In this document: piece after piece, positions 26,901-42,525 of the stretch | How positions within the stretch are numbered: position 1 is the stretch's first letter | How the letters are laid out: each line of letters starts with the position of its first letter | Virus record (IMG/VR): IMGVR_UViG_3300036766_000214 | Location: 1-45,020 of that record | Length of the DNA: 45,020 nt | Reading direction: 5' to 3' (one strand) | Source: a virus | Notes under the pieces: model-generated | Databases searched by the model: none | Told to the model about the DNA's origin: nothing | Seen by the model: only the letters and a program-made list of their open reading frames with translations | Translations under genes and position numbers: made by a program

Positions 26901-27269
26901 GAAATTGCTAAGCGAGGTAAATATCCTACCATTCAGACTGTCACTGACTGGATTCAGAATCCTACGAAGAAAGGAGCTGCTGATAATCTTGAACGCCTGG
27001 TCAATAATCTCTCCCAAGCGTGGGCACTTGGTTATCTTGGAGACTTGGGAACTGCCATACGTCAGGATAGAAAGGGGCTCGCGGCTAACCTAGCTGGTCC
27101 TGTTATTGGAGATATCGGAGAAGCTTCCTACCACATTGGAAATCTCGATGCTAGGGGACTAGCTCGACAAGCTGCTCGAATGGTTCCTATCTTTGGGGGA
27201 GGTCTATCGGATGCTCTGAAGAAGCAGACCGAATCAAAAAACCAACGTCCTAATCAGAAGTCTAGGTAG
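23982..27269 (+). CDS. Large internal/ejected virion protein
   Basis: 1095 aa, the largest protein. It opens with a short strand motif (VVTFRDKKTGKVYQMPWSS), a hydrophobic Gly/Ala segment (about 125-175), a Pro/Ala-rich linker (200-370), then helical domains to the end. The C-terminal 250 residues (from LPKTWTDEPYMVPVMLFKRY) resemble large polyvalent-protein-associated helical regions (LPD38 type), a family-level guess. No lysozyme motif is seen. Size, position and helix content fit an internal core protein ejected with the genome. Its TAG lies inside the opposing gene's 3' end. Confidence 0.65.
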   Translation: MPDKVVTFRDKKTGKVYQMPWSSYIAPTPADAAKFIDDTENPSSWTKAKNWIESPLTNLPTKIGKSLAEPLYKFGEEGTAKPTGKVDKKGKPVMKTEPTHPYLGPLARGTAAYLESLGLTGSSLTSPANVGVTALTLGAGAAANAGRAGLATSLSIPGRALGATQLAHGAYGVYSEPTMSGKVGRAAEAVLGGFGAAYNPNVAAAKPAMGRAPIVEPGPPPAGAIRVGGNLPPMSEGPIGGLGETSRRGLPSPPAAPQNPYYVSPFGDVSQSLEQATPSVPDRTFIDVPPQVGMGAVSEHGLRQVPTYPKLNRGTARSTRLPDMTEVPAVEAAPAQAAPLENMPEPQQAAPPKVETATPQPDPVMRGFSDSDIQAMAEGGDESAIIEGLARPSLTERFKQLFQDEAGAVGNIKKLKADKLKSGKQADMFDRGEFQQPKSQKEPFTHEAFIQSLKATLGRLKSEKGEVKLPSKDDIISPKMQRSIRKVYDDIATSGLTVIKNLGGDALERLIIKNRLDAEQFAGNINSTLKKVTKGLTPEELTSYIDMRDKGAAPLNDKVKAAFDAWKNVDNLVMNAAEESGAGMAHRGETIPIEEKPQNFPHIYPPEFFSDANRVKSLRSIMKEGYSYKEAKDIFNRAAKLNERLIDPETGKNINAEGYRRDINADYQHYNDIAKRISQANDFGPLDTSDSGSPISQLIARTDNPARVAEIVRKYLGKSKPSDPNWARVNAKLSRFETFTKLSHFIVNNSANLAMLPVRSSGKGLLEALGKVTTDYRGAVEEAEKTGALQSIYTELVRETGGPTGPTKWFGIQKGEEINRTISAIAGKRTALDLFQRLKANPQDVRVRSRLENLILENPDKLLSQEGLNEVQVNRAGNRMSEITQGRASNIDLPKTWTDEPYMVPVMLFKRYAYQQSRNIYAAIKQENPLKVATILVGLMNLFGEATGDINAALRGGSRAVAQGKDVKEEVGKEIAKRGKYPTIQTVTDWIQNPTKKGAADNLERLVNNLSQAWALGYLGDLGTAIRQDRKGLAANLAGPVIGDIGEASYHIGNLDARGLARQAARMVPIFGGGLSDALKKQTESKNQRPNQKSR

Positions 27270-28464
27270 CTTCAGTTTTCCTCATGTAACGCTCGAGGAC
27301 TTCTGGATTTAAGATGTAGACGACCTCTTGCCTGTCCCCAATTCGGCGTGCTCGAATCTCAATAGCTTTTTGAGCAAAGAGAGACTCCGCAATTCGGTCT
27401 AGCTCGAAGTTATCAAAGTGCTGCCAGTGCTTCTTGAGGGCTTCTGTTCTTGTTATCTCGTGTTCTTTCCTCGTGATTAGCTCGCGGAGTAGAACTGCTG
27501 TCCCAGGTGCAGAAACTGATTTTCCTACCTGACTAATAGCAATTCTCTTAGCTCCTGGAACAAAGTCCTTACAGGCTCGAATAGCCTCGTCTAAGTCCTC
27601 GTATTCCAAAATCATATCCCGCTTGCGCGCGATCGAAATGAGGATTGCAGTCTTCAAAATGTGATCGTGCAGTCTTTCCATCGTGCCTGTTGTATCTTCC
27701 TCAGTCTCGATAGTTTGAAACTGTGTATACCACTCATTGTAGAGTGCCTTCCCGCGCACCGACCATTTCATCTCTCCTTTACATCTAGCTATCTCCTTTA
27801 GTTCATCTATCAATCCTTGATATGGGAAGGTTATCTCGGGTCTATCTGTGAGTGAGTTTGCTACGCTCTTTTTGTCTGCGTAGATGATGAAGGTTCGAGC
27901 AATGAAGCCACCACCGATTGCATTATCGGGGATAACATCCTTCATATTGACTTCGTTTGTAGCACCGAATAGAACAACGCAGGGTCTTTTCAGGCTCGCA
28001 TTGGGGCTATTCTTGAGCATATACGTCCACTCGGGATTGTAATGCCCATCGTAGAGGTCTGTCAAGATTGTCAATGCTTGAGGATCTGAGACGAGGAAGC
28101 TCGCAAACTCAGAGGCAAAGAGGGAACCAGCAGAGTCCATTTGAGGAGGACCTCCACCTTCCTTCGTCTTTGATTTGGCTAGGTCTGTGATAACGCCTTG
28201 AATCGAAACTCGACCGGCATATATGCGTGTATTATTGACTTCACGCACGAGAGCTTGAGCCAAGTTGATAGGCGGACCTTTCCTCAAACCTGAACGCCCT
28301 ACGAGAAGGACGTAAATGTTGGGATATAATTTGTAGTAGAATTTGTCAAGGTATACTTGGTCTTTGAGAACAGAGGCGATGGCGACGAGCGATGACCAGT
28401 AGTAGTAGCGCCTCGGAGACTCAGAACCTATTGTATACTTGAGAACGCTATCGATGAAACTCAT
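27262..28464 (-). CDS. DUF3987-like ATPase, helicase candidate
   Basis: 400 aa, ATGA-coupled to the polymerase gene. The N-terminal region reads as the DUF3987 pattern (YWSSLVAIASVLKDQVYL, then LYPNIYVLLVGRSGLRKGPP). Around residues 55-63 the Walker A is degenerate: GRSGLRKG replaces the usual GxxGxGKS. A C-terminal winged helix (about 335-390) is visible (EHEITRTEALKKHW). DUF3987 proteins stand beside phage replication genes as presumed replicative helicases or primase partners. No other replicative helicase is found, so this is the likely one. ATPase competence needs testing because of the Walker change. Confidence 0.7.
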   Translation of the reverse strand: MSFIDSVLKYTIGSESPRRYYYWSSLVAIASVLKDQVYLDKFYYKLYPNIYVLLVGRSGLRKGPPINLAQALVREVNNTRIYAGRVSIQGVITDLAKSKTKEGGGPPQMDSAGSLFASEFASFLVSDPQALTILTDLYDGHYNPEWTYMLKNSPNASLKRPCVVLFGATNEVNMKDVIPDNAIGGGFIARTFIIYADKKSVANSLTDRPEITFPYQGLIDELKEIARCKGEMKWSVRGKALYNEWYTQFQTIETEEDTTGTMERLHDHILKTAILISIARKRDMILEYEDLDEAIRACKDFVPGAKRIAISQVGKSVSAPGTAVLLRELITRKEHEITRTEALKKHWQHFDNFELDRIAESLFAQKAIEIRARRIGDRQEVVYILNPEVLERYMRKTEAT

Positions 28465-30944
28465 GCGGCCATCGGAAGTTCATACTTCTTCAGGTTCTTG
28501 TAATCCATACCGATTTTCGTTTCGGCAGGAATGATGATCGGGTCGCGCGAAATAGTGCAATTCTTAAAGTCGATGGGTTTCTCGATCTCTTCGTGAATCA
28601 GTGTTACGTATCGGTCGATGTGTTCTGTTCTGACAAGTGCGACAAGAGCGTCGTGAGCCTCGACCACAAACCGCGCGTCAATACCGTCTCCCACAAAGCG
28701 ACCATTAGCTCGGATTCCCGCTCGACGGAGACTATCCGGAACTGTCGATTGTGGCAAATGAGCGTACGCCTCTTTCCAGAGTTCACGCCCCCAGCGGTCG
28801 AAGAACTGTCGGTAGCGGCCAAATGGATTGACAAGGATACGGTTATTGTTTTGGAGTTGGTTTTGAATCTCCTGATGGAAGACTCCACGAATGTTTGGAG
28901 AGAAGGAATGGAAGGCGTCAAGGAGTTTACCTGCTTTCCATTCTGACAAGTTAATGTCGATGTGTTGACGCTTAGCCTCTGTATTGACTAGTTCCATCAG
29001 TCTGTGCTTACCCATGTCATAGTTACCAGCATGGCGCACGATTTTTCCGATAAAACGCATCTCCTTCGTAACTTGACTGACGTTTACGTTGAAGATGGAA
29101 GCGGCTGTAATCTTGTGAACGTCCGCTTTGTCAGCAAAGAGCTTGAGTAGTTTGAAATCATTAGCGAACGACGCGACGATTCTTGCTTCTGCCTGAGACA
29201 TGTCCGTTTCGACGATTGTATAGCCCTCGTCAGCAATGAACATCTCCCGTACTTCCGTTCCAATGTCTCCATGCTTAGTCATGGTATGGAACGGCATTCC
29301 TAAATCTTCGGGTCGCATTGGCGGTTTCATCGTGCCAGTAGATGAACGACCTGTCTCTGTTCCTGCAATACGATAGACGCACTTCATACGCCCGTCGTAG
29401 TCAGGTTTCGCGGAGATTTTCTTCTTCGCCATTTGAAGACGACGGATAAGAAGGATCAGTTCAAGGATTCGTCGCATCCCTGGAGTGATTTTCTTCGTAT
29501 TCGCCATCAACGCGACTAGGACTTCTTCTGCGGTCCCCTTTCTCTGTGGGAATCTAAGCTGCGTATAGACTAGTGTAGCGCACTGGGGTTTTGAGTTGAC
29601 GTTGACTTCCCAGCCTGCAAGTTTATTGAGCTCATCCTGTGCCTCTTTTACGAGATTTCCATAATGGGCAACAAGCTCTTTCTGCCTTTCAAGATTTATC
29701 CTAAAGCCTACATCCTCAAGCTCGTAGTAGAATCGATGAAGCGAGGTAGTATACTTTAGGACGAAGTTCTCGTACCAATCAGGGAAGCCAGGAACATTAA
29801 GCTCTCTGGCATCTTTCCGCATCTCCTCGAAAACTTCAAAGGTAACGCAAGCATCGCGTCCATTATAAGTCAGGAAGCGAGTTATCTTGTCGCGTTTCCA
29901 GTCAAATTCTTTTCCTTCTTCTTTGTAGTAAGGCTCCTTTGTGTAGATACTGGTCGTGAACTCCAACGCCTTCGGGAACTCAGGATGGAGAGAGTGAGCT
30001 AAGAGGGACGTATCGCAATGAAAATTCTTAATGAAAATTCCACATAGTCGTGCGAGCTGTCTCCGGTCGAACTTGAAGTTCTGTCCGATAACTTGAACAT
30101 CCGATTCGAGAAGCTCCGCAACCATACGCCACATCTCGGCAAGTTGGTGGTCATGGATTCCTTCTAAGTTTTGCCAACTAAAGACGTCAATGAGAGGGAT
30201 GGAGATTGCGTGCCAGGAATTGAAGGCTAGACCGATGCAGAAGGGAACGGACTTAACTACTTCGATGTCAACGGAGACCGTGGGATATGTATCTCGATTC
30301 GAATAGAGGGACAGGAATCGTCCAAGAGAGATGGAATCCTTGGCGATTTCAATAACTCGCTCAGGAGGCGCATAAAGGCTTGACTCTGCCTCGGCCTTAG
30401 CTCGTAAGAGATCGAGTTTAAGGATATGACGATAAGAGTATTTGAGCGGACCCTTTTTCTTCCCTTGCCAGTCATCCTCTAGTTCCTCTCCAGACGAGTG
30501 TAGTAGTGCAGCGGGGTGAATAGTCGGGACGACCTTAAAGTCCATCCCTACGGTTTTCATACAGGAACCACGCCATTTCATGATTCCCGATGAGCCGTTC
30601 CCTTTTCCAGCGATTGCCTTTAGAGCTAAGTTTCCAAACGCGACAATACAGTTAGGTTTGAGGGCGTTAATCTCATCCCAAAGCTGATTGATCGAATCGT
30701 CGATAGAGACGCCTATTTCTCCCAGTCTCTTCAACTGATTCTGCGGCGGTCGGTATTTGATGACGTTGGTGGCGTAGATATCACCCCACTCAATGCCTAT
30801 CTCTCGACAAATTTCTTTGAGAAGCTCTCCAGTTGGTCCTACGAAGGGTTCCTGAAGATACTCCTCTGACTGGCCCGGAGCTTCACCGACGAAAAGGAGC
30901 TTCGCCTCGCGGTTTCCGCATCCGGGGACGTAGTTTCCCCTCAT
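28461..30944 (-). CDS. Uracil-DNA glycosylase / 3'-5' exonuclease / family A DNA polymerase fusion
   Basis: 827 aa. Residues 10-175 are a family-4/5-type UDG: catalytic GEAPG with E21, PFVGPTG, KYRPP and HPA (143-145). Cysteines that bind Fe-S in family 4 are absent. Residues 215-395 are the proofreading domain: D226/E228 (SVDIEV), the GQNFKFD block and YNGRDAC. Residues ~440-820 are polymerase A: motif A DMSQAEAR (~580), O-helix R-x3-K-x3-H-x3-Y (~630-645) and motif C VEAHD (~763). No 5'-3' nuclease. The O-helix residue equal to Pol I F762 is His. This is the replicative polymerase; the UDG domain may remove or sense uracil at the fork. Starts by ATGA overlap. Confidence 0.92.
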   Translation of the reverse strand: MRGNYVPGCGNREAKLLFVGEAPGQSEEYLQEPFVGPTGELLKEICREIGIEWGDIYATNVIKYRPPQNQLKRLGEIGVSIDDSINQLWDEINALKPNCIVAFGNLALKAIAGKGNGSSGIMKWRGSCMKTVGMDFKVVPTIHPAALLHSSGEELEDDWQGKKKGPLKYSYRHILKLDLLRAKAEAESSLYAPPERVIEIAKDSISLGRFLSLYSNRDTYPTVSVDIEVVKSVPFCIGLAFNSWHAISIPLIDVFSWQNLEGIHDHQLAEMWRMVAELLESDVQVIGQNFKFDRRQLARLCGIFIKNFHCDTSLLAHSLHPEFPKALEFTTSIYTKEPYYKEEGKEFDWKRDKITRFLTYNGRDACVTFEVFEEMRKDARELNVPGFPDWYENFVLKYTTSLHRFYYELEDVGFRINLERQKELVAHYGNLVKEAQDELNKLAGWEVNVNSKPQCATLVYTQLRFPQRKGTAEEVLVALMANTKKITPGMRRILELILLIRRLQMAKKKISAKPDYDGRMKCVYRIAGTETGRSSTGTMKPPMRPEDLGMPFHTMTKHGDIGTEVREMFIADEGYTIVETDMSQAEARIVASFANDFKLLKLFADKADVHKITAASIFNVNVSQVTKEMRFIGKIVRHAGNYDMGKHRLMELVNTEAKRQHIDINLSEWKAGKLLDAFHSFSPNIRGVFHQEIQNQLQNNNRILVNPFGRYRQFFDRWGRELWKEAYAHLPQSTVPDSLRRAGIRANGRFVGDGIDARFVVEAHDALVALVRTEHIDRYVTLIHEEIEKPIDFKNCTISRDPIIIPAETKIGMDYKNLKKYELPMAA

Positions 30945-31279: not shown

Positions 31280-31444
31280 TTAGTGCTTATAGAGGAAAGT
31301 AACGGTCAGAGTGATTGCCATAGCGGAAAGCCAATAGCAAACATCCGCAATTTTTCCTGCGAACGCCCATCTCGTAGCGTTCAACCCGTATAGCACAATG
31401 ATGACGTAGTTGAAAATCTTCGGGTCGAGCAAGAGCTTAAACAT
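31280..31444 (-). CDS. 54-aa protein with two TM segments
   Basis: ATG 31444 lies in the 3' end of the methyltransferase gene (8-bp overlap). Two hydrophobic segments are visible (FNYVIIVLYGLNATRWAFA and VCYWLSAMAITLTVTFLY) with a short Lys/Asp loop between them. Such two-TM microproteins are common in phage early regions. The longer frame to 31507 has no good start signal. Role unknown, perhaps inner-membrane anchoring. Confidence 0.65.
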   Translation of the reverse strand: MFKLLLDPKIFNYVIIVLYGLNATRWAFAGKIADVCYWLSAMAITLTVTFLYKH

Positions 31445-32717
31445 TCTTCTTCTCCATTCGCTTGACAATCTTCTCGTAAGAAGAGGGGTCGCGTTCGATG
31501 AGAACATACTTTCTGTTCGTCAACTTGCACGCGGAACCGACGACACCGGAGCCTGCGAATGGGTCGATGATGATGTTTCCCTCATAGCTACAGTCCTTAA
31601 TAAGATTAGACATCAGCTCAATTGGTTTTTCATTAGGATGTATCATCTGTGAGGGATGGACGATTGGAAATGGCTTGATACCACTTAACTGTCCGGCAGA
31701 GGAGAGAGCAGCAGGAGGCTTGGCTGCTACAATGATGAACTCGAAGTCTCTCGAATACTCCCAAGGAGCTACTCCCCGCCTTGAGAGACTCTTAAGTTTC
31801 TGCCAGATAATTGGAGTCTTTGAGACAGCGTAACCGAGCTTTTCGAGCTTACCAGCTACGTGCTTAGACTCCTCAATGCCTGGCTCATCGTGGCCTACGT
31901 AATACTCGTAATCGTCAAGGCCACAAAAGATGTAAATGAGCGCACCAGACTTCAAGACGCGATAGAGTTCGCGGAAAACTGGTAGTGTTCTATCGTCAAT
32001 CGTCAAGCTCCGATCAAAGAACTTGATCCACGGCGGGTCAGTCACACAATGGTCGATTGATTGGGGAGGAAGTTGCTTGAGAATCTCTGAGGAGTCGCCG
32101 CAATAGATGTCGTTTCCCTCAAACTTGGTAGGTAGGCCAGCCGATCGCTCAGTCGTATAGCGATGAATGGCTACCCGAGCAAGCTTAACCGCGGTTTTCT
32201 TATCCTTAACCTGAGCGAGGGTTGGGTCTTTCTGTAGAGCGCGCGCCAAGGTGAGATCATCGGATAGTGAACCGATGCCCATCGAAAGCTCCTCAGCGGT
32301 ATCCTTTAGCGACCACCCGACTTTGGTTTTGGGGGGTCCTTCTTTGGAGGGACGTCCTGTCTTCTGCGGGAGGCCATGTTCCTCTTGACGAAGCGAATGA
32401 AGTTCTTCGATCAATTTGACCTGTTCGGGCCAGGGGAGGTCGAATCGTTTGAGGTTTTCATGGATACGAGTCTCCTTCGAACGCTTGTCGCTCATTTCTC
32501 GAATGGAAGCCTCGATCTCTTCCCATCCAAGACGAGCGCAGGCGAGTAGTCGTTTCTCCCCTGATACCAAGGAAAATCGTTCGCCCGGTGAAGGACTTAC
32601 AATGATCGCTTGGCTTAGACCAATCTCAGCAATCGAGTCGGCCAGTTCTTGGAGCTTGATTTCATCGATGTTTTGTATGGGACGTGGGATATCAATGAGG
32701 TCGATTCGTATGATCAC
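31437..32717 (-). CDS. ParB-like domain fused to DNA methyltransferase
   Basis: 426 aa, GTG start overlapping the upstream TGA (GTGA). Residues 1-105 are a ParB/Srx-type N-terminal domain with GEKR at 53-56 (GEKRLLACARLGW). Residues ~133-162 look like a helix-turn-helix. The C-terminal half is an amino-methyltransferase in beta-class order: DPPW at 227-230 (catalytic, N6-A or N4-C) before the SAM-binding DPFAGSG at 385-391. ParB-N/MTase fusions are known in phages and mobile elements and usually act as orphan methylases for anti-restriction or regulation. No cognate restriction enzyme is nearby. Target sequence unknown. Confidence 0.88.
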   Translation of the reverse strand: MIIRIDLIDIPRPIQNIDEIKLQELADSIAEIGLSQAIIVSPSPGERFSLVSGEKRLLACARLGWEEIEASIREMSDKRSKETRIHENLKRFDLPWPEQVKLIEELHSLRQEEHGLPQKTGRPSKEGPPKTKVGWSLKDTAEELSMGIGSLSDDLTLARALQKDPTLAQVKDKKTAVKLARVAIHRYTTERSAGLPTKFEGNDIYCGDSSEILKQLPPQSIDHCVTDPPWIKFFDRSLTIDDRTLPVFRELYRVLKSGALIYIFCGLDDYEYYVGHDEPGIEESKHVAGKLEKLGYAVSKTPIIWQKLKSLSRRGVAPWEYSRDFEFIIVAAKPPAALSSAGQLSGIKPFPIVHPSQMIHPNEKPIELMSNLIKDCSYEGNIIIDPFAGSGVVGSACKLTNRKYVLIERDPSSYEKIVKRMEKKNV

Positions 32718-33984: not shown

Positions 33985-34809
33985 TTACCCTCCCCCAGTG
34001 GTTCCTTGTAGTTTCAGTTTATACTCATTGAGATAAGCTTGGACTACGTTATAGCACGGTTTATCGGTAATATCGAAGACTTTTGGTAGAGGTAGTGCAG
34101 TCTTGGCGACGATTTCCCCAGCACTCACAGTTTGGACTTTTCGGCTGATTGTTTGTCCAAGCTGGTTTGAGACATCGGTCCAAAAATGCCACATTTCATT
34201 AAAGTAGTTAGGAAGGAGAGAAGGAGTCTTCCAACCATACGATGCGATTGACTGACCCTTAATCATCGATGCGAGGACATCGTTCGCAGATCCACCTTGC
34301 TTAGTAGTCTTCGCGGCCTGAATTGGATGAGCCGTAACGATAACATTGCAAGGAAGGATCTTGAGGATTTCGAGGATCTGAAGCATGACCCCGGTCTCAC
34401 CCTTATACTCGTCCCAATCCGGGATAGGCAAGCCACCCTTTGTCTTCTTCACATCATTCGAGTGCAGCCCCATCTGGTGAAGGACCGCGACGGCTGAGTA
34501 GGACGTATAGGAATCCATCATCACCCAATCGTAGGGACAACGGTCCTGCAAATCCTCAATCTTCTTAATGCCCTCGGAAAAACCGACTACGTCAGACCGA
34601 GCGTCGCCATCAAGTCCAACGGTCCAGTATTCGATATCAGTTCGCTTGGGATAAAACAGACGGACGGGAGCAACACGCCCATCAAAATCGAGAATGAGGC
34701 CATTACCGGGCCATGAAGCTCCAGCGATTGTCTTACCACTTCCATTGGTTCCTACAAAAAGTCCCATAAAGCGGCCACCAAGCTCGATGTCACAGGTGCG
34801 TGGACTCAT
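33985..34809 (-). CDS. RecA/Sak4-like recombination ATPase
   Basis: 274 aa. Walker A GTNGSGKT at residues 20-27 and a Walker B-like YDWVMMDS around 95-102. A Gln/Thr sensor segment NVIVTAHP follows near 150. The protein is a minimal RecA core without N- or C-terminal DNA-binding domains, as in Sak4-type single-strand annealing/strand-exchange ATPases of phages. Pairing with an SSB-like protein (33381) and a Cas4/RecB-like nuclease (35830) makes a recombination module. The start ATG has a GAGAGG SD inside an 18-bp duplication. A 151-bp untranslated gap follows, with SD-like GGAG strings but no ORF. Confidence 0.82.
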   Translation of the reverse strand: MSPRTCDIELGGRFMGLFVGTNGSGKTIAGASWPGNGLILDFDGRVAPVRLFYPKRTDIEYWTVGLDGDARSDVVGFSEGIKKIEDLQDRCPYDWVMMDSYTSYSAVAVLHQMGLHSNDVKKTKGGLPIPDWDEYKGETGVMLQILEILKILPCNVIVTAHPIQAAKTTKQGGSANDVLASMIKGQSIASYGWKTPSLLPNYFNEMWHFWTDVSNQLGQTISRKVQTVSAGEIVAKTALPLPKVFDITDKPCYNVVQAYLNEYKLKLQGTTGGG

Positions 34810-35829: not shown

Positions 35830-36744
35830 CTAATCCTCGTCTACCATTCCTGAATCCTCATCACGGGTGTAAGGGTCCCACTTCTCATCCTTAATGAAGT
35901 TGGCCTGGAGCTTGAACGCGCGAGATTCCTCTGGAACTTGACAGACTTTCTGGTAAGTGCAACCCGAATACTTATCGCAGGAAGTCCGATTTTTGGGCAG
36001 ACGGATACCCTTGTGCATCAACTCATGCCAACCTAATGCTTGGTTAACATAAGAGATACAATCTTCTCTCCACTCCCTAACTCCGTGAACTCCGGAATCA
36101 TGGAGGAGACGCCTGAACTTTTCTTCTGGTTTAAGGGAGGTCTGGTAGCCGACTTTATCGATAAGGACCGGGACTCCGAAAGCCCACTCGTATCCTTGAA
36201 ACTGGTTGGAGAGGACGTAAGGCCAAGAACGTCTACTCTCTGTCTTCGTATCTACAACAAATACGCCTTGCTTGGGGTCGCGTATGCGTGCATCGATGAT
36301 ACCCTCGTAGATGATAACGAGGCCATTGTATTCAACGTCCATGACAGTTCTAAGAGTCTCATCTTCATAGAGAACCTTAGAGAAGGGTTGCTCAACATCG
36401 ATGATATCCCAACCATCATATTGCCACTTGAGAATGTAGTCGTAAAAGACTGGAATATCCTCTTCCTCGAACATCTGGACGCTGATGTTCTCCATCCCAG
36501 TGATAGCGACTCGACCCTTGAGAATGCTCGCTGCTACTACCCTATGATGGTCCTCTCTAGCAAATCCTGCTTTCTTGCAACGACGATAATGGGCAATCAT
36601 CGTGTGCATAGCCGAGCCGCGCTCCAACGCTTTTGCCTTCGAGATTGGACGCCAATGCTCAGTCATCTCAAGCCGATATCTCTCAGGACAGAGGGACATT
36701 GAGTTGAGTATCTGCGAGTCCAACTTTACGTAGAGTTTATCCAC
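35830..36744 (-). CDS. PD-(D/E)XK nuclease with Fe-S cysteines (Cas4/RecB-like)
   Basis: 304 aa. The core has GIIDARIRD followed by VFVVDTKTESRR (about residues 150-172), the D-(x)n-D/E-x-K motif of RecB/Cas4/AddB-type nucleases; H48 in SAMHTMI is the usual conserved His of the family. One N-terminal cysteine (C19, LCPERYRL) and three C-terminal ones spaced C-x5-C-x5-C (SCDKYSGCTYQKVC) can hold a 4Fe-4S cluster. Expected to be a ssDNA/dsDNA end-processing exonuclease feeding the RecA-like ATPase. No CRISPR array or Cas1/2 is present. Confidence 0.87.
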   Translation of the reverse strand: MDKLYVKLDSQILNSMSLCPERYRLEMTEHWRPISKAKALERGSAMHTMIAHYRRCKKAGFAREDHHRVVAASILKGRVAITGMENISVQMFEEEDIPVFYDYILKWQYDGWDIIDVEQPFSKVLYEDETLRTVMDVEYNGLVIIYEGIIDARIRDPKQGVFVVDTKTESRRSWPYVLSNQFQGYEWAFGVPVLIDKVGYQTSLKPEEKFRRLLHDSGVHGVREWREDCISYVNQALGWHELMHKGIRLPKNRTSCDKYSGCTYQKVCQVPEESRAFKLQANFIKDEKWDPYTRDEDSGMVDED

Positions 36745-40839: not shown

Positions 40840-42525
40840 TTATGCTGCCAACTTCCACTTTTTCAAGCCCTTCGTCGCAAGAGCCTGAGCCAACTCCATC
40901 TGTAGAGAGGACTCATTCCACTCGTAGTCCGTCCCATCGATGGTCATGTCCACATTGCGTCGTTTGACTTCGACAATCTCAGTCAGGAAGTCGTCGATGG
41001 TTCCCGCTGCAATGAGATAGACTGCGTTAATCTTCGCATCGGCAGGCCAGGGGTCATCGGGCCTCGGTCGTGGAAATCTAGTCTCGGCCTGCTCCTCCCA
41101 CTTAGGATTCCACTGACGCTCGAGGAACAAACAATCAGAGCAGAACTGGAGATTCAAGCCCTCACAACTCGCAAGCGTAGAGGCTACGAGGATACGACTC
41201 TTGCCCTCTCTAAAAGCTTGCTCAACTTCCACTCGGTCAGTCAGGGTCATCCCACCCTTCAGATACAAGGGAGCGGCAATCTTCTCGTCGTTGATGCCCT
41301 CCTCTGTCATGATCTTAGTGAGTCGAATGATAAGCTCCGCTGCTGCCTGCTGATGATGAAGAAATACGACGAGTGGCCTGTCGCACTCCTCTAGGAAGGA
41401 CTGACACCAATCGACAGCCGTAGGAACCTTGGCAATCCCTGTGATATGTCGCATCCGAGCCATATAGCCAAGGATGTCGGTAGGAATCTTAGGAGTCGGG
41501 TCTTCCATGAACTCCTGAAACTCCTTGACTACTCGAATATAAGAGTCGAGCTCGCTACCCTCCAATTCTGCAAGCTGAAACTGTCGAAAAATCTTGGGTA
41601 GGTCGGGGAGAACGTCCTTACGTAGACGCCTGAGAATGAAATCCTTGGTCAACTCTCGGAATCGCTCAGGATTCTTCAAGCCGCCAATCTTCCCAGTCTC
41701 AGGATTGACTTTGCAATGAGAAAGGATGTAGGTTGCGTGTTGTGGGAAAAGCTCTGGTCGAATCATGTTGAGCGCAGGGAAAAACTCCCCCGCGTGCTTG
41801 TCGATAGGCGTTCCAGAAAGACCTACGACGCGCGCCTTCTGTCCCCCATTCGCGAGTGCGATGATTTTCCGCAAAGCCTTCGTCCGAGCAGAGTTCGGAT
41901 TCTTGACCTTCTGAATCTCATCGACTGCAATATGCTTGAAGCGACCGATAGTCTCGTCTGACCAAAGAGGCTTAAGCTCCTTGACCTTCTTGCCTGCTGA
42001 CTCGGCAACTATCTTGTCCCAATCGCTTACGACCTTGATGTCAGGACGCAGTAGTCGCAAAGTATCGATGCTCACGATTACTACGTCAAATGCATCGAAG
42101 TAAGGCTGCTCTTTCGACGACGTGATGATCTGAGCAACGAGCCCGGTCCACCTGTATATCTCAGCGAACCATTGAGCACGTAGGCCCGACTTGACCACGA
42201 TGAGCGCAGGGAGGAGCTTAGGATTCCTCTTGAGAATCATGCACTCTTGGACAGTCTTACCTAGTCCTTGGTCATCGAGTAGAAGCGCATTACAGTCGGC
42301 GTCCTCTAGGAACTTACAGCCCTCGATTTGGTAAGGAAAAGGCCGACGCCCATCCTTTGATACGATGTCAATGCTGTCTGCAAGCTTGGAATCGAGCGCA
42401 TCCGAGATGATGGAATGGCCGCACTCGAGGTCTACGCACCATTCCTCACCGAATCTGTAGCGAGCCCTTTCCTTCGCGAGCTTGCCGCAGCTTGGACATT
42501 TGACTTGGATGATTGTCTTCGCCAT
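40840..42525 (-). CDS. SNF2-family helicase with N-terminal zinc ribbon
   Basis: 561 aa. Zinc ribbon C10/C13/C30/C35, Q-like PYQ (64-66), Walker A DDQGLGKT (84-91), motif II DEIQ (about 206), motif III SGTP (~240), and motif VI Q-x3-R-x2-R (QAETRFPRPR). Domain order is standard for small SNF2/DEAD-like dsDNA translocases of phages, which assist replication or recombination or remodel protein-DNA complexes. Start ATG 42525 in a clear frame; stop overlaps a conserved repeat GAGCAAACTGCAAGTT at 40825-40843. Confidence 0.93.
   Translation of the reverse strand: MAKTIIQVKCPSCGKLAKERARYRFGEEWCVDLECGHSIISDALDSKLADSIDIVSKDGRRPFPYQIEGCKFLEDADCNALLLDDQGLGKTVQECMILKRNPKLLPALIVVKSGLRAQWFAEIYRWTGLVAQIITSSKEQPYFDAFDVVIVSIDTLRLLRPDIKVVSDWDKIVAESAGKKVKELKPLWSDETIGRFKHIAVDEIQKVKNPNSARTKALRKIIALANGGQKARVVGLSGTPIDKHAGEFFPALNMIRPELFPQHATYILSHCKVNPETGKIGGLKNPERFRELTKDFILRRLRKDVLPDLPKIFRQFQLAELEGSELDSYIRVVKEFQEFMEDPTPKIPTDILGYMARMRHITGIAKVPTAVDWCQSFLEECDRPLVVFLHHQQAAAELIIRLTKIMTEEGINDEKIAAPLYLKGGMTLTDRVEVEQAFREGKSRILVASTLASCEGLNLQFCSDCLFLERQWNPKWEEQAETRFPRPRPDDPWPADAKINAVYLIAAGTIDDFLTEIVEVKRRNVDMTIDGTDYEWNESSLQMELAQALATKGLKKWKLAA

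Follow-up and report, generated by a model that had tools for sequence, protein, structure and literature searches.

What might a replicative DNA polymerase do with a uracil-DNA glycosylase (UDG) domain at its N-terminus? The question is raised by one gene in a 45,020-nucleotide stretch of viral DNA (hereafter the window), which is a single linear, possibly incomplete IMG/VR virus record (IMGVR_UViG_3300036766_000214). In the protein encoded by this open reading frame (ORF), Pfam detected a UDG domain (PF03167, residues 7–152, E 1e-22), the DNA_pol_A_exo1 domain (PF01612, residues 263–378, E 2e-6) and a family A polymerase domain (Table 1). The catalytic residues of exonuclease motifs I–III and of polymerase motifs A, B and C are present, and a 5'-3' exonuclease (5' nuclease) domain was found neither in the 827-residue protein nor elsewhere in the record. 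The single chain, with the UDG N-terminal to the exonuclease and the family A polymerase, thus has the SPO1-type architecture. A previous sequence-only reading of the window had located UDG motifs within residues 10–175 and described a UDG on a proofreading PolA without the 5' nuclease of bacterial Pol I; the motifs (Table 1), the Pfam domains and the fold predicted below all agree with it. We lean towards regarding the protein as the family A polymerase that replicates the DNA of a tailed phage and carries a uracil-recognition module in a fixed position; this module would have dropped its iron–sulfur (Fe-S) cluster and kept its uracil pocket. Because fusions of UDG to PolA are already known, our contribution is a large Fe-S-free variant clade of them with a conserved, putative uracil pocket.

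Scanning viral contigs yielded 80 loci, and at least 533 relatives were confirmed. For counting, we used a clade set of 56 sequences, the window included, that share less than 85% identity in the UDG domain. By sequence, the window sits in a large, little-noticed clade of environmental phages whose UDG domain is Fe-S-free and whose predicted pocket is intact. The exonuclease residues DxE (226/228), N289/D293 and D364 are invariant in the set and Y360 is found in 49 members; polymerase residues D581, R630, K634, H764 and D765 are likewise invariant. In Sulfolobus tokodaii UDG, F55 stacks on the flipped uracil and N82 hydrogen-bonds to it (PMC11078745); the residues of the window that align with them, F34 and N60, are kept in 54/56 and 55/56 members, respectively. 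Motif A retains G20 and P23 in every member and E21 in 48, and motif B retains H143 in 55 and P144 in all 56. Over the seven pocket positions, the majority residue accounts for 97% on average, versus 61% for the whole UDG domain, and random sets of seven positions equalled this conservation once per 20,000 draws. A subgroup of seven clade loci (L049, L060, L062, L080, L082, L083 and L090) has GIAPG or GIAPA as motif A, which recalls the GLAPA of family 5, and keeps N60 and H143.

This conservation bears on one alternative, that the fusion is decaying and its UDG domain persists as a neutral relic without present function. That the Fe-S ligands and the N-terminal segment have been lost would fit such decay, but the pocket is near-invariant in the clade, and among close relatives the UDG domain is conserved as well as the polymerase domain. 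Between the window and locus L009, identity is 0.83 in both domains, and the ratio of nonsynonymous to synonymous differences (pN/pS) is 0.13 for the UDG versus 0.17 for the polymerase; synonymous sites are saturated even in the nearest relative, so these values do not amount to a proper dN/dS comparison between domains. The relic explanation is contradicted here, and we consider it highly improbable.

The identity of the UDG domain is far beyond chance, with a confidently predicted family-4 fold. AlphaFold2 (AF2) modeling of residues 1–189 with 53 clade sequences gave a predicted local distance difference test score (pLDDT) of 90.9 and a predicted template-modeling score (pTM) of 0.87. The best match of this model in the Protein Data Bank (PDB) was the Thermotoga maritima family-4 UDG 1L9G (E 4e-17, template-modeling (TM) score 0.78), and the top matches were family-4 UDGs (1L9G, 1VK2, 1UI1 and 4ZBX; TM 0.74–0.78) interleaved with UdgX, the closest structural match outside family 4. 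The domain search and structure prediction of the UDG part suggested in the sequence-only reading therefore yielded PF03167 and a family-4 UDG fold. Family-4 enzymes (T. maritima TM0511, Thermus thermophilus UDGA and the S. tokodaii UDG) share with the window the fold, the GE(A/G)PG and HP motifs, and the uracil-contacting Phe and Asn; they are stand-alone proteins with a 4Fe-4S cluster, whereas the window's domain is part of a fusion and lacks the cluster ligands. In the PDB, the name 'Phage SPO1 DNA polymerase-related protein' is given to several UdgX entries. We rejected UdgX-type covalent chemistry through His109, as the window has no KRRIH R-loop and reads GEAPG, with Ala, where UdgX has GEQPG. 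The full-length model (pLDDT 91.2, pTM 0.88), confident in overall fold and domain placement, resembles Klenow-type polymerases, and against predicted viral polymerases (BFVD) its top TM score was 0.79 over 880 columns, nearly the whole length. Judged from these scores, the UDG seems to sit at a conserved place on the polymerase body.

All four family-4 cysteine positions are gone: the N-terminal pair is absent, Tyr64 replaces the third cysteine, and the fourth is absent. Alignment with the T. maritima, S. tokodaii and T. thermophilus enzymes runs from residue 2–5 to about 155, and upstream of the ATG the frame is open for only about five codons, in which we searched for a CxxC or a frameshift and found neither. 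Alignment and upstream frame together thus establish, as had been proposed, that the protein begins past the first cysteine pair and carries KYRPP for KCRPP, so that the cluster ligands are lost. A relative 84% identical over its full length has the identical start and the identical cysteine losses, and neither a CxxC before motif A nor a Cys at position 64 occurs in any of the 56 clade members. Because start and losses recur in this relative and across the clade, an artefact of frameshift, truncation or a split ORF is excluded, including the sequencing error that had been named as a refuting case.

Fe-S loss by itself is not distinctive, being found also in SPO1 and in many stand-alone bacterial and archaeal UDGs; the Exiguobacterium phage polymerase likewise lacks the cysteines. 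In our tree set, 16 of 49 stand-alone UDGs have neither the N-terminal pair nor the third cysteine, and the pocket is intact in all 16; the set combines all Fe-S-less sequences with half of the rest, so this proportion is no natural frequency. Fe-S-less, family-4-like stand-alone enzymes with a whole uracil pocket occur in Peregrinibacteria/Peribacteria, Woesearchaeota, Trueperaceae and others; pocket-keeping loci of this kind are L099, L101, L110, L111, L114, L117, L127, L128, L130, L139, L144, L145, L150, L162 and L173. The UDG-domain tree, which was built by a quick method from few columns, has many open forks and serves for coarse grouping only, requires about ten changes of Fe-S state. 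It places the window clade with fusions from Desulfofustis, Vibrio and Microcystis phages, Manatee Spring phage ctMlz233, a Planctomycetota metagenome-assembled genome (MAG) and vir526 (Shimodaira–Hasegawa-like approximate likelihood ratio test (SH-aLRT) 95), apart from SPO1-like fusions and the stand-alone enzymes.

Pocket state was compared among UDG–PolA fusions. Such fusions had been said to occur in some environmental phages; in fact they are better known, from SPO1 gp31, from Shbh1 (PMC5135824) and from the Thermus phage phiLo structure 9QHS, and isolates carrying them include phages of Brevundimonas, Serratia, Pseudomonas, Lysinibacillus, Exiguobacterium, Microcystis and Desulfofustis. 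We found a direct statement of the fusion only in PMC5135824, which describes an N-terminal UDG domain in the Shbh1 and SPO1 polymerases and mentions a proposed processivity role, and found no paper for 9QHS. Bacillus phage SPO1 gp31 resembles the window in having an N-terminal UDG on an exonuclease/PolA body, no 5' nuclease and no Fe-S cysteines, and the two UDG domains are 34% identical. Unlike the window, however, SPO1 has lost the pocket, with Q-E-N-P as motif A, Met and Ser for F34 and N60, and HPN. The phiLo polymerase, with which 9QHS is identical over 1142 residues, UDG domain included, shares the UDG–exonuclease–PolA order and an intact pocket (GE.PG, F, N and HP), but still has the full set of four Fe-S cysteines and a length of about 1150 residues. 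Also among the closest are the polymerases of Microcystis phage Mel-JY34 and ctMlz233, UDG–PolA fusions annotated simply as DNA polymerase, which share with the window an intact pocket, the absence of the KCRPP cysteine, a His at the position of Escherichia coli Pol I F762, ParB/methyltransferase genes upstream and DUF3987 downstream; they are nevertheless only 26–28% identical to it, and in ctMlz233 scattered N-terminal cysteines remain upstream of the annotated start.

N60 is lost in SPO1-like, Serratia/Pseudomonas, Desulfofustis and Vibrio phage fusions, most of which have also lost F34 or the motif-A Glu, and Pfam still detects the UDG domain in these pocket-eroded proteins. The pocket is thus dispensable for fold and fusion, and its strict retention in the window clade nonetheless points to a function there; this is our best evidence. 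From its conservation in the clade and its loss in other fusion lineages, the pocket is probably functional. The eroded lineages also supply the case for the main rival, in which the UDG domain would bind DNA or aid processivity independently of catalysis, much as D4 does in the vaccinia E9/A20/D4 holoenzyme, and uracil recognition would be secondary or vestigial. Several lineages keep the domain without a pocket, its position on the polymerase body is fixed, the role proposed for SPO1 and Shbh1 is of this kind (PMC5135824), and replication of vaccinia requires its UNG protein but not the catalytic site (PMC2630940). A purely structural role, however, leaves the near-invariant pocket of the window clade unexplained, and we hold this explanation to be possible but somewhat unlikely for the window.

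Pocket state also varied with the gene content of the phages. A thymidylate-synthase-family gene, a class that takes in the dUMP hydroxymethylase encoded by SPO1 and without counterpart in the window, was present in 6/8 pocket-eroded versus 2/36 pocket-intact phages (Fisher P 1e-4, kinship ignored), and the positive pocket-eroded phages represent about two lineages. In SPO1-like, Serratia and Pseudomonas phages (L007, L008, L010, L013, L175 and L178), such a gene lies within a few kilobases of the eroded fusion. The association of pocket erosion with this gene family is suggestive, a lead from sequence comparison. It could reflect two states: thymine phages such as the window clade would keep a live pocket that polices uracil at the fork without Fe-S, whereas modified-uracil phages such as SPO1 would have dismantled a pocket that would attack their own genome, leaving the domain as a processivity element only. 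We offer this division tentatively and think it rather unlikely to hold as stated. The same covariation would fit a pocket whose target is not uracil but another base, such as a modified pyrimidine belonging to the host, to a rival phage or to this phage, in which case the domain would read a modification instead of damage. Specificity does shift within the UDG superfamily, as in Brig1, which excises alpha-glucosyl-hydroxymethylcytosine (PMC11078745), and the title of 9QHS is 'phiLo family-A DNA polymerase with modified template'. The window, however, retains the exact uracil-type residues F34, N60 and H143; ThyA-family, ThyX, dUTPase (two families), MazG and PurZ (PF00709) genes were all sought in the window, a possibly incomplete record, and none was found, nor was ThyA or dUTPase found across 28 long clade records. 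We consider a different target base improbable.

How, then, would a fixed uracil-recognition module act? In the mechanism we propose, the family-4-derived UDG would be held at the N-terminus of a Klenow-like body, in the place of the 5' nuclease of bacterial Pol I, from where it could sample DNA at the fork and flip uracil into its pocket. Uracil arising from dUTP incorporation or cytosine deamination might thereby be marked or excised while the phage genome is copied, and the domain may add DNA-binding surface too. From the pocket residues, uracil binding appears quite likely, and for glycosidic excision we judge the chances about evenly balanced; on meeting uracil the domain might cut, stall the enzyme or do no more than bind. 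Several points weigh against this reading. Functional family-4 enzymes normally hold an Fe-S cluster, and the UDG domain scores 112.4 bits against NCBIfam UDG_fam4 (TIGR00758), its best-matching kind of family, below the cut-off of 125.3. The motif-A Glu21 is replaced by Ile in 7 of the 56 clade members, and pocket residues, read through conservation, are in themselves no proof of catalysis. Excision from a template strand under replication would leave abasic sites that block synthesis, a point in favor of binding, or of action after synthesis, over excision from the template. Finally, the geometry between domains is taken from pTM and Foldseek scores rather than from coordinates or an error map.

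The polymerase domain has a peculiarity of its own. Where E. coli Pol I has F762, 55/56 clade members have His, and where it has Y766, 15/56 have Leu. A published survey of viral PolA (PMC9069017) retained only sequences whose residue 762 is F, L or Y, so the polymerases of the window clade would have been filtered out. A relationship to DpoZ, the aminoadenine-incorporating polymerase, was rejected, as the protein scored 47 bits against an NCBIfam cut-off of 500 and no PurZ match was found.

Several genes around the fusion (Table 1) recur in the clade. A DUF3987 gene follows the fusion in 63/63 clade loci with room for it, a ParB-methyltransferase homologue lies upstream in 46/69, and a Sak4 homologue was found in 46/54. 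The fusion gene is thus a fixed part of a conserved replication module, to which the Sak4-like ATPase and the PD-(D/E)XK exonuclease also belong. The sequence-only reading had also suggested a role against a uracil-based host defense; we found no evidence for it: none of the neighboring genes that we examined was found to be defense-related, and the fusion gene sits in a replication module. One contig binned as bacterial (L094, Planctomycetota MAG VRUF01000001) carries a UDG–PolA fusion with ParB-methyltransferase and DUF3987 neighbors, and is probably a phage or prophage.

Table 1. Coordinates of the fusion gene, its domains and motifs, and neighboring genes in the window.
Feature	Position	Strand	Remarks
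DUF3987 / phage primase-like protein	27262..28464	-	directly downstream of the fusion gene, 4-base overlap
UDG / 3'-5' exonuclease / family A DNA polymerase (P0001)	28461..30944	-	827 aa, ATG start
Family A polymerase domain, residues 422-790	28575..29681	-	PF00476 (DNA_pol_A), E 2e-38 (Pfam)
His638, at E. coli Pol I F762 position	29031..29033	-	alignment of clade
3'-5' exonuclease domain, residues about 222-380	29805..30281	-	PF01612; DxE (226/228), N289/D293, Y360/D364
UDG domain (residues 7-152), lacking the Fe-S cysteines	30489..30926	-	PF03167; best PDB match 1L9G
UDG motif B, HPA, residues 143-145	30510..30518	-	translation
KYRPP, residues 63-67; Tyr64 where KCRPP has Fe-S cysteine 3	30744..30758	-	alignment
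Asn60, equivalent of uracil-binding Asn82 of S. tokodaii UDG	30765..30767	-	alignment
Phe34, equivalent of uracil-stacking Phe55 of S. tokodaii UDG	30843..30845	-	alignment
UDG motif A, GEAPG, residues 20-24	30873..30887	-	translation
ParB N-terminal domain + N6/N4 DNA methyltransferase	31437..32717	-	upstream of polymerase
Sak4-like ATPase	33985..34809	-	phrog_124, E 1e-10
PD-(D/E)XK exonuclease	35830..36744	-	PF12705, E 4e-9; syntenic
SNF2-family helicase/translocase	40840..42525	-	PF00176, E 8e-26

Other arrangements of the two activities were also observed. In Pseudomonas phage phiK7B1 (L176:97-3486), a family C DNA polymerase III alpha subunit carries a C-terminal UDG (PF03167, residues 978–1107, E 4e-12) with an eroded pocket, which is a separate fusion to a polymerase family unrelated to PolA. 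In Caulobacter phage Kuura, the N-terminal part with the UDG (369 residues, L179:3453-4562) and the polymerase (560 residues, L179:5175-6857) are annotated separately with two ORFs between them, and the polymerase of Vibrio phage L014 is likewise split over separate ORFs.

Covalent attachment of a base-excision domain could allow a replicative polymerase to combine genome copying with surveillance of bases. In archaea, family B polymerases sense uracil in the template through a different pocket, and in poxviruses a UDG serves as processivity factor; the phage fusions might follow archaeal-type uracil sensing, poxvirus-type processivity, or neither. The large pocket-intact, Fe-S-free clade provides clean material for comparison, and the pocket-eroded SPO1 lineage a natural control.

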